A stretch of DNA of 64,000 nt from Alphaproteobacteria bacterium SO-S41 (GTDB lineage: Bacteria > Pseudomonadota > Alphaproteobacteria > Micropepsales > Micropepsaceae): positions 1,798,001-1,862,000 of the forward strand of contig AP024629.1 in assembly GCA_019670725.1 (NCBI GenBank), written 5' to 3'. The position numbers and the translations under genes were made by a program. This document shows, in pieces, positions 814-43,268 of the stretch (within the stretch, counting starts at the first letter, position 1; each line of letters begins with the position of its first letter). The notes below the pieces were generated by a model that saw only the letters and a program-made list of their open reading frames with translations, was not told the origin of the DNA and did not search any database.

Positions 814-2262
814 CTACAAGCCGGCCGCCTGCTTCGACTTTCGCGTCAGGGAGTCGCGCAGCTTCACCTTCGCGGCGTTCTCATCGCCGCCCTGCGACTC
901 GACGACCGCGTCGCGATAGGCGCGGAGCACGTCATTGTCGTTACCGCTGGCATCGCGGCCATTGTCGCGAAGGATACGGCGGGCATCGGTTACGGAGTCT
1001 GCTGAACCCAGCGCGATCATCTCGTCGATCTTCGCCATGTCGCCGACCGGCGGCTTGGCGGGCAGCGGATGGTTGAAGAGGCGCGCGACATAGCCGGCCG
1101 AATACCAGGTCGCGTAACCGCGCCGATCGCCGCGTTCGTTGACGTTGTCGATCGTCCACGCGATGAGGGCGGTGCACGAAATCCCGCCGAGGATTGAAGC
1201 GAAGGCAATGGCGGCGCCGGCAACGATGCCTTCCGCCAGCAGATACTGCCATGTTGCCGCGAGCTGAGCGCCGGCGCGCTGGAAGAACTGCTTGAGCGCT
1301 TTTTCGCCGACATATTTGAAGACGGCTTTCCAACCGTCAGCGGAGAGGCCGATATTGATGGAGAACTTGATCGTGAACTTGAGCGGAACAGGGCCCGCAG
1401 CAAGTTTCAGCGTGTTCTTGCCGGTATAAGAGCCCTTGAAGCCGGCAAAGGCCGGGCTGCCCTCGATCGTAAACTCGTGGCCGATCGAGTAGCTCCCGTC
1501 ATCGCTGGTCCATGCCGTATTCTTGAAAGCCAGCTCGAAGGGCTCGGCGATGGCGGCGACGACTTTTTGTTTTTCGCTGGTTGCGACCGCCTTGGCGATT
1601 TTTTCAAGATATTGCGGCCCGAGCTTGTCGAGCGCGGCGCCAAATCCGACCTTCCAATCCTCGGTTAATTTGGCCTCCGCCGCGGCCTTCATCTTGTCCT
1701 TCTTGTACTGAAACTTGACCGCGGACTCGGTGACGATTTCGCCTTCAAAATTGATCTTCAAGACGGCGATAAAATATTTGTACTCGAAGAACTTCTTGGG
1801 ATCGGGCGGCAGTTTCACTTCGAAGCCGAATTTTTGTCCCGGCAGAAGGTCATAGACGTAGCCGGGGCCGGGATCGTCATCGAGTGAGATGACCGGCTCG
1901 GGCCGGTTGAAGACCTTTTCGCCACGCTCCATGCGGCCGACGATGGGGATCGCGATGTTCTCGCCGCCGCGGAAGCGCCGGTTCTTGCGATCGGCGGTTT
2001 CCGGGCAGCGGAAGGCATGGTGGTTGCCGAGATACCAGTTGACGATTTCCGGGACGAGTTTGCCTTTGACGATACTGCCCGGGAAATTGAACTCGATCAG
2101 CGCCTCGACGGGAACGTTGTGCCTTTCGGCGACGGACGTCCAACCCTCCTTCTTGCCGTCCCGGATCGTATAGCGGGCGGCCGTCTGGTCGGCTGGCGGC
2201 AGGTAGCTCTTCACCCGGTCGGAGTCTTTCAGCGCCGCTTTGGGTGCTTTCTCTAGTGCCAT
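814..2262 (-). CDS. hypothetical protein with LysM-like N-terminal region and a hydrophobic segment
   Basis: A 482-residue protein that I do not recognise. I chose the ATG at 2262 because GAGAGGGAAA lies just upstream; an ATG twelve codons earlier has no such site. The N-terminal part (about residues 24-95) combines a YTIRDG opening with SVAERHNVPVEALIEFN, which resembles a LysM-type fold and suggests binding to a surface glycan, but the match is loose. The middle is beta-rich with many Lys and Phe. A glycine/alanine-rich hydrophobic stretch near residues 345-375 could cross a membrane. The coding sequence has more T-rich and A-rich codons in its middle than neighbouring genes, so recent acquisition is possible. 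Confidence 0.6.
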   Translation of the reverse strand: MALEKAPKAALKDSDRVKSYLPPADQTAARYTIRDGKKEGWTSVAERHNVPVEALIEFNFPGSIVKGKLVPEIVNWYLGNHHAFRCPETADRKNRRFRGGENIAIPIVGRMERGEKVFNRPEPVISLDDDPGPGYVYDLLPGQKFGFEVKLPPDPKKFFEYKYFIAVLKINFEGEIVTESAVKFQYKKDKMKAAAEAKLTEDWKVGFGAALDKLGPQYLEKIAKAVATSEKQKVVAAIAEPFELAFKNTAWTSDDGSYSIGHEFTIEGSPAFAGFKGSYTGKNTLKLAAGPVPLKFTIKFSINIGLSADGWKAVFKYVGEKALKQFFQRAGAQLAATWQYLLAEGIVAGAAIAFASILGGISCTALIAWTIDNVNERGDRRGYATWYSAGYVARLFNHPLPAKPPVGDMAKIDEMIALGSADSVTDARRILRDNGRDASGNDNDVLRAYRDAVVESQGGDENAAKVKLRDSLTRKSKQAAGL

Positions 2263-40501: not shown

Positions 40502-41962
40502 CTAGGCGGCGTCGCCCAGCTTTTCGAGGGCGCGGGCAGCGGTCTTCAGGTCGGCGACGAAGCGACGATATTCGGTGGCCGCGACGACGGCGTCGGTGAC
40601 GCGCAGCAGGAAGGACGGGTGCACGGTGACGATGCCGCGATGGGCCCCGAGGTCCATCAGCGTGCCGCGTTCCTTCATCACAGGCACAGTGCGTTCGGCG
40701 AGAGCATAGGCGGCGGTGGCGCCGAGGGCGACGACGAGACGCGGGCGGACCAGCGCGAGTTCGCGGCTGAGCCACCAGCGACAGGTCTTGATCTCCGACA
40801 TGTTCGGCTTCTGGTGGATGCGGCGCTTGCCACGCAGTTCGTATTTGAAATGCTTCACGGCGTTGGTGACGTAGACCTCGTCGCGGTCGATGCCGGCATC
40901 GCCGAGCGCCTTGTTGAACATCTTGCCGGCGGGGCCGACGAAGGGGTGGCCGGCGAGGTCTTCCTGATCGCCGGGCTGTTCGCCAACGAAGAGCAGCGCG
41001 GCGCGGGGCGGGCCTTCACCGAACACGGTCTGCGTGGCGTGCTTGTGGAGCGGGCAACGGGTGCAGCCGGCGGCTTGGTCGCGCAGGGTAGCGAGTGTGG
41101 TGGGTTCCCCGCTGGCCTCGGTTTCGCGCGCCGTAATCTCCTCCGCCCGGCGCTCCGCGATCCGCGTGGCGAAGCGCGGCGCGGCATCGGCCGGGCGGTC
41201 CACCATGGACTGCGCACGCGCGCCTGCCTGCCTCAACATCTCCGGAACTGCTCTGGTTTCAGGCATGTCGCGCCAATACCGCTTGGGCATCTCGCGCAGC
41301 ATTGCACCAACATGGAGGCGGGCGGGGTTGAAGATCGTGCGGTAGTAGGTGTTCCAGAGGCCGTCGAGGACAGCGTCGTTTTCCTCGGGCGGACGCGGCG
41401 CGCCGGGGCCGAAGGTGATCTCGCCGTTCCGCCACGCCGCGCTGCCGCTAGGCGTGACGATCAGCCAGTTCATCGTGGCGAAGCGCTCAATGAAGAAGGG
41501 CAACGCGCGGCGGAGGATGTGGTGCTGTGGCTCGAACCAGGCGGTGAAGAGCGGGCCGTCTTCACCGGGTTGTTCACGGAAGCGCAGGAAGGCGTGCATC
41601 TTGTGGATGTCGCGGCGGACAGCACGAGCATAGTCGAGCGCACGGCCGAGAATGGGGTCGTTCGCCTGGTCGAGCACGCCGGGCTCGCCGCGCGCGATGC
41701 GCCAAAGCAGTGCGTAGAGGAGATCGAAGCGGTCGGGCGCGCTGTGACAGGCGACGTTGTCGAGCAGTTCGATGAAGGCGCGGGGGACGGCGAAGGCGGG
41801 CGGCGTGGCCTCGGCGGTTTCGGGCGGCGGCGGGAGGAGCGGCGCGTTGCCGTCGGCGGAGAAGGTGACGGCGCCGGGCGCGAGGCCCTGCGCGATGCAG
41901 CGCCGGGCGGCGTCGCGGAAGGCCGCGCCGTCGGCGTCTTCGGCGAGGACGAGCGCGTACAC
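40502..41962 (-). CDS. DUF4130-UdgX fusion (uracil-DNA glycosylase family protein)
   Basis: A 486-residue two-domain repair protein. The first about 240 residues are a DUF4130 domain (putative DNA metabolism protein, TIGR03915-like), including YALLWRIARGEPGVL and ARAVRRDIHKMHAFLRFRE. The rest is a UdgX-type uracil-DNA glycosylase: the iron-sulfur Cys pair in GCTRCPLH, motif A GEQPGDQEDLAGHPFVGPAG, the diagnostic loop KRRIHQKP with H383, and HPS near the end. In UdgX this His attacks the deoxyribose and stays covalently bound to the DNA after uracil removal. Start GTG at 41962, four bases after the radical SAM stop; the longer upstream frame overlaps that gene and lacks support. Confidence 0.88.
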   Translation of the reverse strand: MYALVLAEDADGAAFRDAARRCIAQGLAPGAVTFSADGNAPLLPPPPETAEATPPAFAVPRAFIELLDNVACHSAPDRFDLLYALLWRIARGEPGVLDQANDPILGRALDYARAVRRDIHKMHAFLRFREQPGEDGPLFTAWFEPQHHILRRALPFFIERFATMNWLIVTPSGSAAWRNGEITFGPGAPRPPEENDAVLDGLWNTYYRTIFNPARLHVGAMLREMPKRYWRDMPETRAVPEMLRQAGARAQSMVDRPADAAPRFATRIAERRAEEITARETEASGEPTTLATLRDQAAGCTRCPLHKHATQTVFGEGPPRAALLFVGEQPGDQEDLAGHPFVGPAGKMFNKALGDAGIDRDEVYVTNAVKHFKYELRGKRRIHQKPNMSEIKTCRWWLSRELALVRPRLVVALGATAAYALAERTVPVMKERGTLMDLGAHRGIVTVHPSFLLRVTDAVVAATEYRRFVADLKTAARALEKLGDAA

Positions 41963-41966
41963 GGGA

Positions 41967-43193
41967 CTAGAACAACGTGAGCTGGGCCGGGGGCGGCGTG
42001 AGGCGCGCGCGCAGGACTTCGGCGTCGAGCTGGGGGCCGGGGTGGTGGTCGTCGGTGGTGAAGAAGGCACGGGCGCGGCGGACGGCGCCGGCGAGGCGCG
42101 CCACATCCGCATAGCGCAACCGCGCATGACGGCGGGCGGCGATGAGGCGATCGACGGCGGTGACGCCGAGGCCGGGGATGCGGAGCAGGTCCTCGCGGGG
42201 GGCGGCGTTGATATCGACGGGGAAGCGGCCGCGATTGCGCAGTGCCCAGGCGAGCTTGGGATCGATCGAGAGATCGAGCATGCCGTCGTCCATCGCGCCC
42301 GCGAGTTCGGGTAGCTCGAATTCGTAGTGCTTCAGCAGCCAGTCGGACTGGTAGAGGCGATGTTCGCGGACGAGTTCGACAGGCTTGGTGGGGAGGATCG
42401 AGGAGGGGTGACCGTTGGGCGTGAAGGCGGCGTAGTAGACGCGCTTCAACTGATAGGCGGCGTAGAGCGTGGCGCTGGTCTCCATGATGTCGAGATCGCT
42501 GGAGGCGTCGGCGCCGACGATCATCTGCGTGCTTTGACCCGCTGGGGCGAACTTGCGCTTGGGTTCGTCGGCGGCTTCGTCGATGAGGCCGCGGGTGACG
42601 GCCATGCCGCGCTTGATGCCGCGGGACGATTTCTCGGGCGCGAGCGTCGCCAGCGTTTCCTCCTTGGCGAGTTCGATGTTCATCGACAGGCGGTCGGCAT
42701 AGAGGCCGGCCTCGGCGATGAGGTCGTCGCTCGCGCCGGGGATGGTCTTCAAATGGATGTAACCGCGATAGCCGTGGTCGAGGCGCAGCGATTTCGCGAC
42801 GCGGACCATGTCGGCCATCGTGTCGTCCTCGGAGCGGGCGATGCCGGAGGAGAGGAAGAGGCCCTCGATGCAGTTGCGGCGGTAGAGGTCGAGGGTCAGC
42901 GTCACGACCTCCTCGACCGTGAAGCGGGCGCGGCGGACATTGCTGGAGCGGCGGCTGACGCAATAGGCGCAGTCGTAGATGCAGAAGTTCGTGAGCAGAA
43001 TCTTCAGCAGCGAGATGCAACGGCCGTCGGGCGTGTAGGCGTGACAGATGCCTGCGCCAGTGACCGAGCCGATCCCGCCCTTCGTCGCACCGGGCCGCTT
43101 GCCGCCCGAGGAGGCGCAGGAGGCGTCGTATTTGGCGGCGTCGGCGAGGATTTCGAGCTTCGCGATCAGGGGATCAGCGGGCTGCGTGTTCAT
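41967..43193 (-). CDS. putative DNA modification/repair radical SAM protein
   Basis: A 408-residue radical SAM protein of the group paired with DUF4130-UdgX proteins (TIGR03916-like). The cluster-binding motif is CIYDCAYC with C71, C75 and C78, followed by the GxIxG-like IEGLFLSSGI and SAM-binding segments. A helix-hairpin-helix motif (INAAPREDLLRIPGLGVTAVDRLIAARR region, about residues 320-348) can bind DNA. The chain ends in QLTLF (404-408), which matches the bacterial beta-clamp-binding consensus. A LexA box covers its start codon. The reaction on DNA is unknown. Confidence 0.88.
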   Translation of the reverse strand: MNTQPADPLIAKLEILADAAKYDASCASSGGKRPGATKGGIGSVTGAGICHAYTPDGRCISLLKILLTNFCIYDCAYCVSRRSSNVRRARFTVEEVVTLTLDLYRRNCIEGLFLSSGIARSEDDTMADMVRVAKSLRLDHGYRGYIHLKTIPGASDDLIAEAGLYADRLSMNIELAKEETLATLAPEKSSRGIKRGMAVTRGLIDEAADEPKRKFAPAGQSTQMIVGADASSDLDIMETSATLYAAYQLKRVYYAAFTPNGHPSSILPTKPVELVREHRLYQSDWLLKHYEFELPELAGAMDDGMLDLSIDPKLAWALRNRGRFPVDINAAPREDLLRIPGLGVTAVDRLIAARRHARLRYADVARLAGAVRRARAFFTTDDHHPGPQLDAEVLRARLTPPPAQLTLF

Positions 43194-43202
43194 GTATTGT
43201 TC
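43188..43202. promoter_or_regulatory. LexA (SOS) box over the start codon of the radical SAM gene
   Basis: GTTC (43188-43191), seven bases, GTTC (43199-43202) is a perfect match to the alphaproteobacterial direct-repeat SOS consensus GTTC-N7-GTTC. On the coding strand it reads GAAC-N7-GAAC and contains the ATG (43191-43193) and part of the AGGAA ribosome binding site. Repression by LexA would block initiation, and DNA damage would switch the two-gene repair operon on. Confidence 0.8.
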
Positions 43203-43268
43203 CTAACGCCATTCGGCCGCTATAGCAAGGTTAAGAGCTTACGGAGCGGGGCGTCGGGTGGATCAAAT

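Follow-up and report, generated by a model that had tools for sequence, protein, structure and literature searches.

A GTTC-N7-GTTC box at the start of a radical SAM gene is very likely (probability of about 0.92) a working LexA operator of the operon that this gene forms with the gene for a DUF4130-UdgX fusion, and the gene pair is very probably switched on by DNA damage. The box lies in a 64-kb stretch of alphaproteobacterial DNA, the whole of which was analysed and is referred to as the window. In Alphaproteobacteria, the radical SAM/DUF4130/UdgX pair is very consistently marked by a LexA box, and other clades have a LexA-type operator of their own at this position, a pattern suggesting that the enzymes very probably work on DNA associated with damage and are not housekeeping proteins.

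Layout of the operon start

As read from the window sequence, GTTCATGTATTGTTC at positions 43188-43202 matches GTTC-N7-GTTC, and along the radical SAM gene, which is encoded on the minus strand (41967-43193), it reads GAACAATACATGAAC. Its designation as a predicted LexA operator, on the same strand, draws on the sequence, the rank of the site in the genome, and its conservation in orthologues. The ATG of the radical SAM gene (minus strand, 43193-43191) is located inside the box and is the sole in-frame ATG, GTG, or TTG from the upstream stop codon to the conserved part of the protein. A ribosome-binding-site-like AGGA (minus strand, 43204-43201) has two of its four bases in common with the box. 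An earlier note on this DNA had described a perfect GTTC-N7-GTTC at 43188-43202, spanning the ATG and part of the ribosome-binding site, and the sequence bears this description out.

With regard to promoter elements, a scan of the window site for a consensus sigma-70 promoter found none. Judged by spacing, TTGCTA (minus strand, 43223-43228) is a candidate -35 element; its first base is 35 nt upstream of the ATG, which is the commonest TTG-to-start distance in relatives. TAGGAA (minus strand, 43200-43205), located 17 bp past TTGCTA, is a weak candidate -10 element, likewise chosen by spacing, and its use would place the transcript start at about the ATG.

Box frequency and conservation in orthologues

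A motif of eight fixed bases might fall over a gene start by chance and have no regulatory role, and the frequency of the motif is compatible with such an origin. The window contains two exact matches, compared with an average of 1.74 over 100 shuffled sequences (two or more in 54 of the 100), and the whole genome (4.44 Mb) has 70 matches against 42 for a reversed control pattern. Motif counts were rejected as evidence for the box, since the window count is no better than chance. A chance origin nevertheless deserves almost no credence in view of the orthologues: the box occurs near the start in 141 of 145 distinct alphaproteobacterial upstream regions (119 in one orientation and 22 in the opposite one), amid flanking sequences that, by eye, are divergent among relatives, whereas the reversed control pattern occurs in only 4 of these 145. 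Where a clade has another LexA motif, moreover, it is mostly that motif that stands at the operon. The 145 upstream regions represent 149 alphaproteobacterial loci minus four with identical upstreams (L126, L127, L140, and L180), and the exact box is missing from L063, L143, L177, and L186. The search for the box in orthologous operons had been proposed in the earlier note, and its prediction held.

Named loci were obtained from a scan of public genomes, from which the best 80 of at least 591 confirmed stretches were used. Among these best 80, the box lies within -220 to +20 of the conserved codon in 71, comprising 71 of the 74 loci taken as alphaproteobacterial (including L135, titled only Proteobacteria) and none of the other six. 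The reversed pattern occurs within the same interval in two of the 80, and the remainder of these loci gives a background of 0.0045 boxes per 240 bp. The nine named loci of this set without a box are the six non-alphaproteobacteria together with L143, L177, and L186. In addition, all 44 further alphaproteobacterial genomes with a radical SAM protein over the TIGR03916 cut-off carry the box. The distribution of TIGR03916 is patchy: its cut-off is exceeded in 8 of 96 genomes at family level, 25 of 385 at class level, and 84 of 398 at phylum level; matches under the cut-off (16 of 24, 16 of 41, and 15 of 99, respectively) were excluded.

Some upstream regions show arrangements of their own. L143, a metagenome-assembled genome of Rhodospirillales, has GAACAAACGTTC near the start codon in place of the alphaproteobacterial box; this is a GAAC-N4-GTTC palindrome, which we take to be the Gram-positive LexA type. 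Nine loci (L064, L198, L204, L234-L236, L239, L240, and L271, two of them titled Bradyrhizobium) carry an inverted box, GTTCATGATATGTTC, followed by TAATATAAAGCTA, about 130 nt before the conserved codon.

Rank of the site in its genome

The 70 genome matches were scored with a matrix built from 62 distinct boxes upstream of the radical SAM gene in other genomes. With a score of 23.6, the window box ranks 8th, and its spacer is T/A-rich like those of the boxes in other genomes. Genes at other high-scoring sites include uvrA and ssb (6th), a PA0069-type radical SAM gene (7th; L105, presumably COG1533), an HhH-GPD glycosylase gene (9th), dinB (10th), imuA (12th; 64 bits, below the family cut-off of 150), uvrB (13th), and a metallo-beta-lactamase-fold gene and a helicase gene (18th). 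The lexA box ranks 21st with a score of 14.5, and the recA box ranks 24th with a score of 13.0 (box at 1370672, RecA match from 1370825, a distance of about 140 bp). These scores, low against that of the window box, indicate that the matrix, which is built on the radical SAM gene family itself, favours the window box over the lexA and recA boxes; the SOS-gene neighbours of the other high-scoring sites are the independent part of the rank evidence. The genome's LexA (L095) comprises a LexA_DNA_bind domain (PF01726) and an S24 peptidase domain (PF00717), and the box of its own gene is GTTCTAGTTTAGTTC, the first base of which is 59 nt before the start codon.

High-scoring sites also occur at genes not known for an SOS role, such as those for a pseudouridine synthase (3rd), a LigT-like protein (4th), glyoxalases, and a TerC-type protein, and at the top-ranked site (L102) no gene could be named. 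Four genes of the window's genome that are not classical SOS genes, three of the glyoxalase superfamily and one for a glutathione S-transferase (L011, L013, L034, and L033), have high-scoring LexA-type boxes nearby. The second match in the window (1375-1389) ranks 54th of the 70 and is probably due to chance. The box at the radical SAM gene can be distinguished from a chance match because it lies on a gene start, has a T/A-rich spacer, and is conserved in orthologues.

Exchange of the operator between clades

Outside Alphaproteobacteria, 35 orthologues were available (29 and 6 from two surveys), and GTTC-N7-GTTC was found in none of them. Exact CTGT-N8-ACAG, on the other hand, occurs in 20 of the 35 and in none of the 145 alphaproteobacterial upstreams. 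The loose form, CTG-N10-CAG, is present in 25 of the 35 but also in 13 of the 145, so that only the exact form discriminates and the loose one says less. Individual genomes illustrate the agreement between operon and lexA. Aquabacterium has CTGTACATAAATACAG at the operon and CTGTATAAAATGACAG at its own lexA, and a genome of Chthoniobacteraceae has TGTTCAATAGAACA and TGTTCACTAGAACA at the respective genes; in a second verrucomicrobial genome, TGTCCACGCGAACA at the operon (one mismatch) compares with TGTTCTCACGAACA at lexA. The Salinisphaera operon carries CTGTATATAGTTACAC, also with one mismatch, and none of the patterns tried was found at its lexA. None of the motifs tried was found at the operon in L218 and L270. 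Five xanthomonad-type orthologues carry another palindrome (exact in four, with one mismatch in L243), which is unlike the box of their lexA.

Apart from these five, the operator, as far as can be told from the sequences, follows the host's LexA. A site that changes in step with the host LexA would be kept for LexA and hardly for any other reason, and we take LexA to be the probable reader of the site and the operator exchange to be the strongest evidence for this. In a protein tree of 159 rows, made with FastTree only and with a CTGT label that covers the loose form and single mismatches, at least five operator-class changes are required among the rows with one of four motifs and ten once rows with no motif are counted (mean of 37.3 after shuffling), although the number of switches is not firm because well-supported branches force fewer and the long branches of L063 and L218 meet.

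Overlap with a probable promoter and with the start codon

In the 119 boxes of GAAC orientation, the spacer reads like TAT(C/A)(A/G)T, as seen at box positions 6-11 (T 87, A 104, T 59, C 53 or A 44, A 67 or G 43, and T 61 of 119). A TTG starts 18 nt ahead of the box in 29 of these 119 and 17 nt ahead of it in 10, and a TTG at 18 nt gives a 17-bp spacing to the spacer as a -10 element. Under a mechanical rule that takes the first ATG, GTG, or TTG, the start codon begins 17 nt past the box start in 41 of the 119, close to the expected transcript start of such a promoter. The -10-like spacer, the TTG spacing, and the start distance together suggest that bound LexA would, in many of the relatives, cover the -10 element of a promoter with little or no leader; outside the window's genus, the box seems to overlie this element.

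These features, together with the ATG inside the window box, might also mean that the bases are conserved for a promoter (its -10 element) or for a start codon and not for LexA. Such an origin is very improbable, if slightly less so than pure chance, since a promoter would not require flanking GAAC elements at a distance of 7 bp, the box has the opposite orientation in 22 of the 141 upstreams (in some of them about 130 nt before the conserved codon), and in other clades it is exchanged for CTGT-N8-ACAG or TGTTC-N4-GAACA. A promoter and an operator overlap here and need not compete as explanations.

The position of the box over the ATG, as described in the earlier note, stands for the window's genus and does not extend to relatives in general. 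Of the 119 same-orientation boxes, 10 contain the beginning of the start codon assigned by the mechanical rule (six GTG and four ATG). Eight of these 10 sequences have a further in-frame ATG downstream, and only in the window's genus (L041 and L042) is the sole usable start codon located inside the box. Start-codon overlap as a general feature was rejected, as elsewhere the start codon follows the box.

For the window's genus, LexA might instead act as a roadblock downstream of the promoter, and a box that covers the ATG would then give weaker or partly translational regulation. In the window and its congener L041, the box indeed covers the ATG and the TTG begins 26 nt before the box, 8 nt beyond the usual 18. 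The distance from this TTG to the ATG, however, is 35 nt, a value shared by 24 of 60 sequences, and leaves room for a promoter whose -10 element overlaps the box; we regard the roadblock as unlikely. The TTG may itself be due to chance, the two sequences being related.

A different palindrome in Xanthomonadaceae

In Xanthomonas dyei and Stenotrophomonas sepilia, the operon is preceded by GTCTCA-N5-TGAGAC instead of a LexA-type box, and, of the three lexA genes found there, two have TTAGTAGTAATACTA, which continues to TTAGTAGTAATACTACTAA. Of 60 genomes in the family of G560, which was taken to be Xanthomonadaceae, 41 contain the exact palindrome, and the reversed control was found in none. Palindrome loci of Xanthomonas, Stenotrophomonas, and relatives comprise L147, L200, L213-L217, L243-L245, L291-L320, and L352-L369. 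In a gene survey with one palindrome site from each of 30 genomes, 11 sites lie at a DEAD/DEAH helicase gene (10 within the set distance and L303 just outside), five at the radical SAM/UdgX operon, four at mraZ, one at recA, and one at dnaB, and eight have no assigned gene. In Stenotrophomonas, exact palindromes also precede uvrA (L215) and a helicase gene (L213); the same holds for a helicase gene in Xanthomonas (L216) and for the radical SAM/UdgX operon in G857 (L353). Among 16 further loci with a one-mismatch palindrome, four were named: dnaB (L358), mraZ (L361, which at 98.3 bits falls just short of its cut-off of 98.35), the gene for a PA0069-type radical SAM protein (L363), and a ribonucleotide reductase gene (L367, partial). 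Some of the remaining 12 lie at other or unnamed genes, an aminotransferase gene (L360) among them.

As the palindrome differs from the local lexA box, it may mark a separate damage regulon. A tentative view, to which we give somewhat less than an even chance, is that the operon is a portable repair module placed under whichever damage regulator the host has, and that the rare palindrome GTCTCA-N5-TGAGAC in Xanthomonadaceae belongs to a separate, possibly undescribed damage or replication-stress regulon with a reader other than that of the lexA box. Among the titles listed for Xanthomonas uvrA and LexA-independent damage control, none deals with this palindrome. The operon provides a clean case of operator replacement and, in Xanthomonadaceae, a lead to a different regulon.

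Enzymes of the operon and proposed mechanism

The radical SAM protein belongs to TIGR03916 (514 bits against a cut-off of 343.5), and the cysteines of its CX3CX2C iron-sulphur motif (C62, C66, and C69 in A1 numbering) are invariant in 18 sequences. A weak helix-hairpin-helix (ComEA-related) match at profile positions 320-375 of the family (E 0.0097) agrees with COG4277, which we take to be the TIGR03916 family. The predicted model (pLDDT 84.6) matches generic radical SAM folds, with HydE first (E 8.3e-8). Spore photoproduct lyase was absent from the 50 listed of 81 PDB matches to this model (E <= 0.001) and from a profile search of PDB sequences with the family. An identity of the window protein as SplB/spore photoproduct lyase was dropped, the family being TIGR03916 and the folds generic.

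The second gene (minus strand, 40502-41962) encodes a fusion of DUF4130 (TIGR03915) and UdgX (TIGR03914), identified by family matches. Its probable start is a GTG at 41962, 4 nt past the radical SAM stop codon; the mechanical open reading frame begins at 42127, and the GTG is preferred because the domain match begins at residue 65 of this longer frame. The UdgX part scores 314.8 bits against a cut-off of 189.95 and aligns with solved UdgX structures over 188 residues (E 9e-46), and GEQPG (motif A), KRRIH (R-loop), and HPSFLLR are all present. For the predicted DUF4130 model (pLDDT 86.6), a structure search gave no significant match (best E 0.015, TM about 0.2). With generic folds for the radical SAM model and no significant match for DUF4130, no function was read from the structures.

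A UdgX downstream of the radical SAM gene was detected in 31 of 75 loci by the strict KRRIH pattern (L082 being dropped as too short) and in 64 of the 69 loci that are 6500 bases or longer by the looser GEQPG pattern. An open frame of more than 250 codons precedes GEQPG in at least 66 of the 80 named loci (best 80 of at least 591). In the window, a flavin-reductase-like gene (PF01613; 39857-40492) follows in the same direction, starting 9 bases past the UdgX fusion, with which it may be co-transcribed.

For LexA binding, repression, and induction, we infer the following scheme from the sequences. Briefly, in the undamaged cell, LexA would be bound to the GTTC direct repeat and keep RNA polymerase off the operon promoter or the first transcribed bases. 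Upon damage, RecA on single-stranded DNA would cause the self-cleavage of LexA, the operator would be freed, and both proteins of the operon would be made. UdgX would then cut out uracil and covalently cap the abasic site, and the radical SAM and DUF4130 parts would act on damaged or modified DNA. Our best, though rather doubtful, guess at a more specific division of labour gives UdgX the removal of uracil and the capping of the abasic site; the radical SAM and DUF4130 parts would work on these same lesions or on the crosslink.

Comparison with known systems

SOS control of this gene pair has already been reported. In the part of the source that was available, LexA-type motifs, two in number, are described in Bacteroidetes upstream of the COG1573-COG4277 pair, and the same uracil-DNA-glycosylase system is stated to have been reported as SOS-regulated in Verrucomicrobia and Alphaproteobacteria, with a study of Verrucomicrobia (2016) and a regulon paper on Caulobacter (2008) cited as the earlier work (PMC8565304). 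The operon described here has the same composition, a uracil-DNA glycosylase and a partner under a LexA-type motif; the available text concerns motifs of Bacteroidetes, whereas 145 alphaproteobacterial upstreams and 35 others were surveyed here (PMC8565304). The earlier note's placement of the operon in the SOS response is supported by the 141 of 145 conserved boxes and by the other LexA box types outside the class, but it is not new (PMC8565304); what is added here is the breadth of the conservation and the exchange of the operator.

A search for titles on LexA control of the TIGR03916 family in other proteobacterial classes found none, subscription journals being mostly outside its range. 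Among Caulobacter papers, the accessible main texts of PMC12700426, PMC6120978, PMC12907096, and PMC4211646 do not name uracil or radical SAM, their supplements being outside the search, and the text searched of another gives four genes of the uracil-DNA-glycosylase family without a LexA placement (PMC1839093). According to the available part of its text, one of these papers describes GTTC-N7-GTTC as the alphaproteobacterial LexA box in the Caulobacter SOS regulon, with the same motif and spacing as in the window (PMC12700426). The window box differs from the Caulobacter type in overlapping the start codon, which comes after the box in most relatives of the radical SAM gene.

The UdgX part shares GEQPG, KRRIH, and HPSFLLR at motif B with UdgX of the Mycobacterium smegmatis type (PDB 6ajo, presumably from that organism, and others), from which it differs in being fused to DUF4130 and encoded second in a radical SAM operon. 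At motif B, the window protein has F, compared with S or A in the portion of the literature source available (PMC10359453). DUF4130 has been described as an enzyme with a predicted role in mutagenesis, found in association with SplB-like radical SAM proteins and with uracil-DNA glycosylases, that might modify thymines (PMC3765255). SplB radical SAM repair proteins (COG1533) are, as far as the accessible text states, SOS-regulated in several bacteria (PMC8565304). The window protein would have radical SAM chemistry, DNA repair, and SOS control in common with SplB, and it belongs to a different family, TIGR03916, in contrast to NF033668 for the SplB type.
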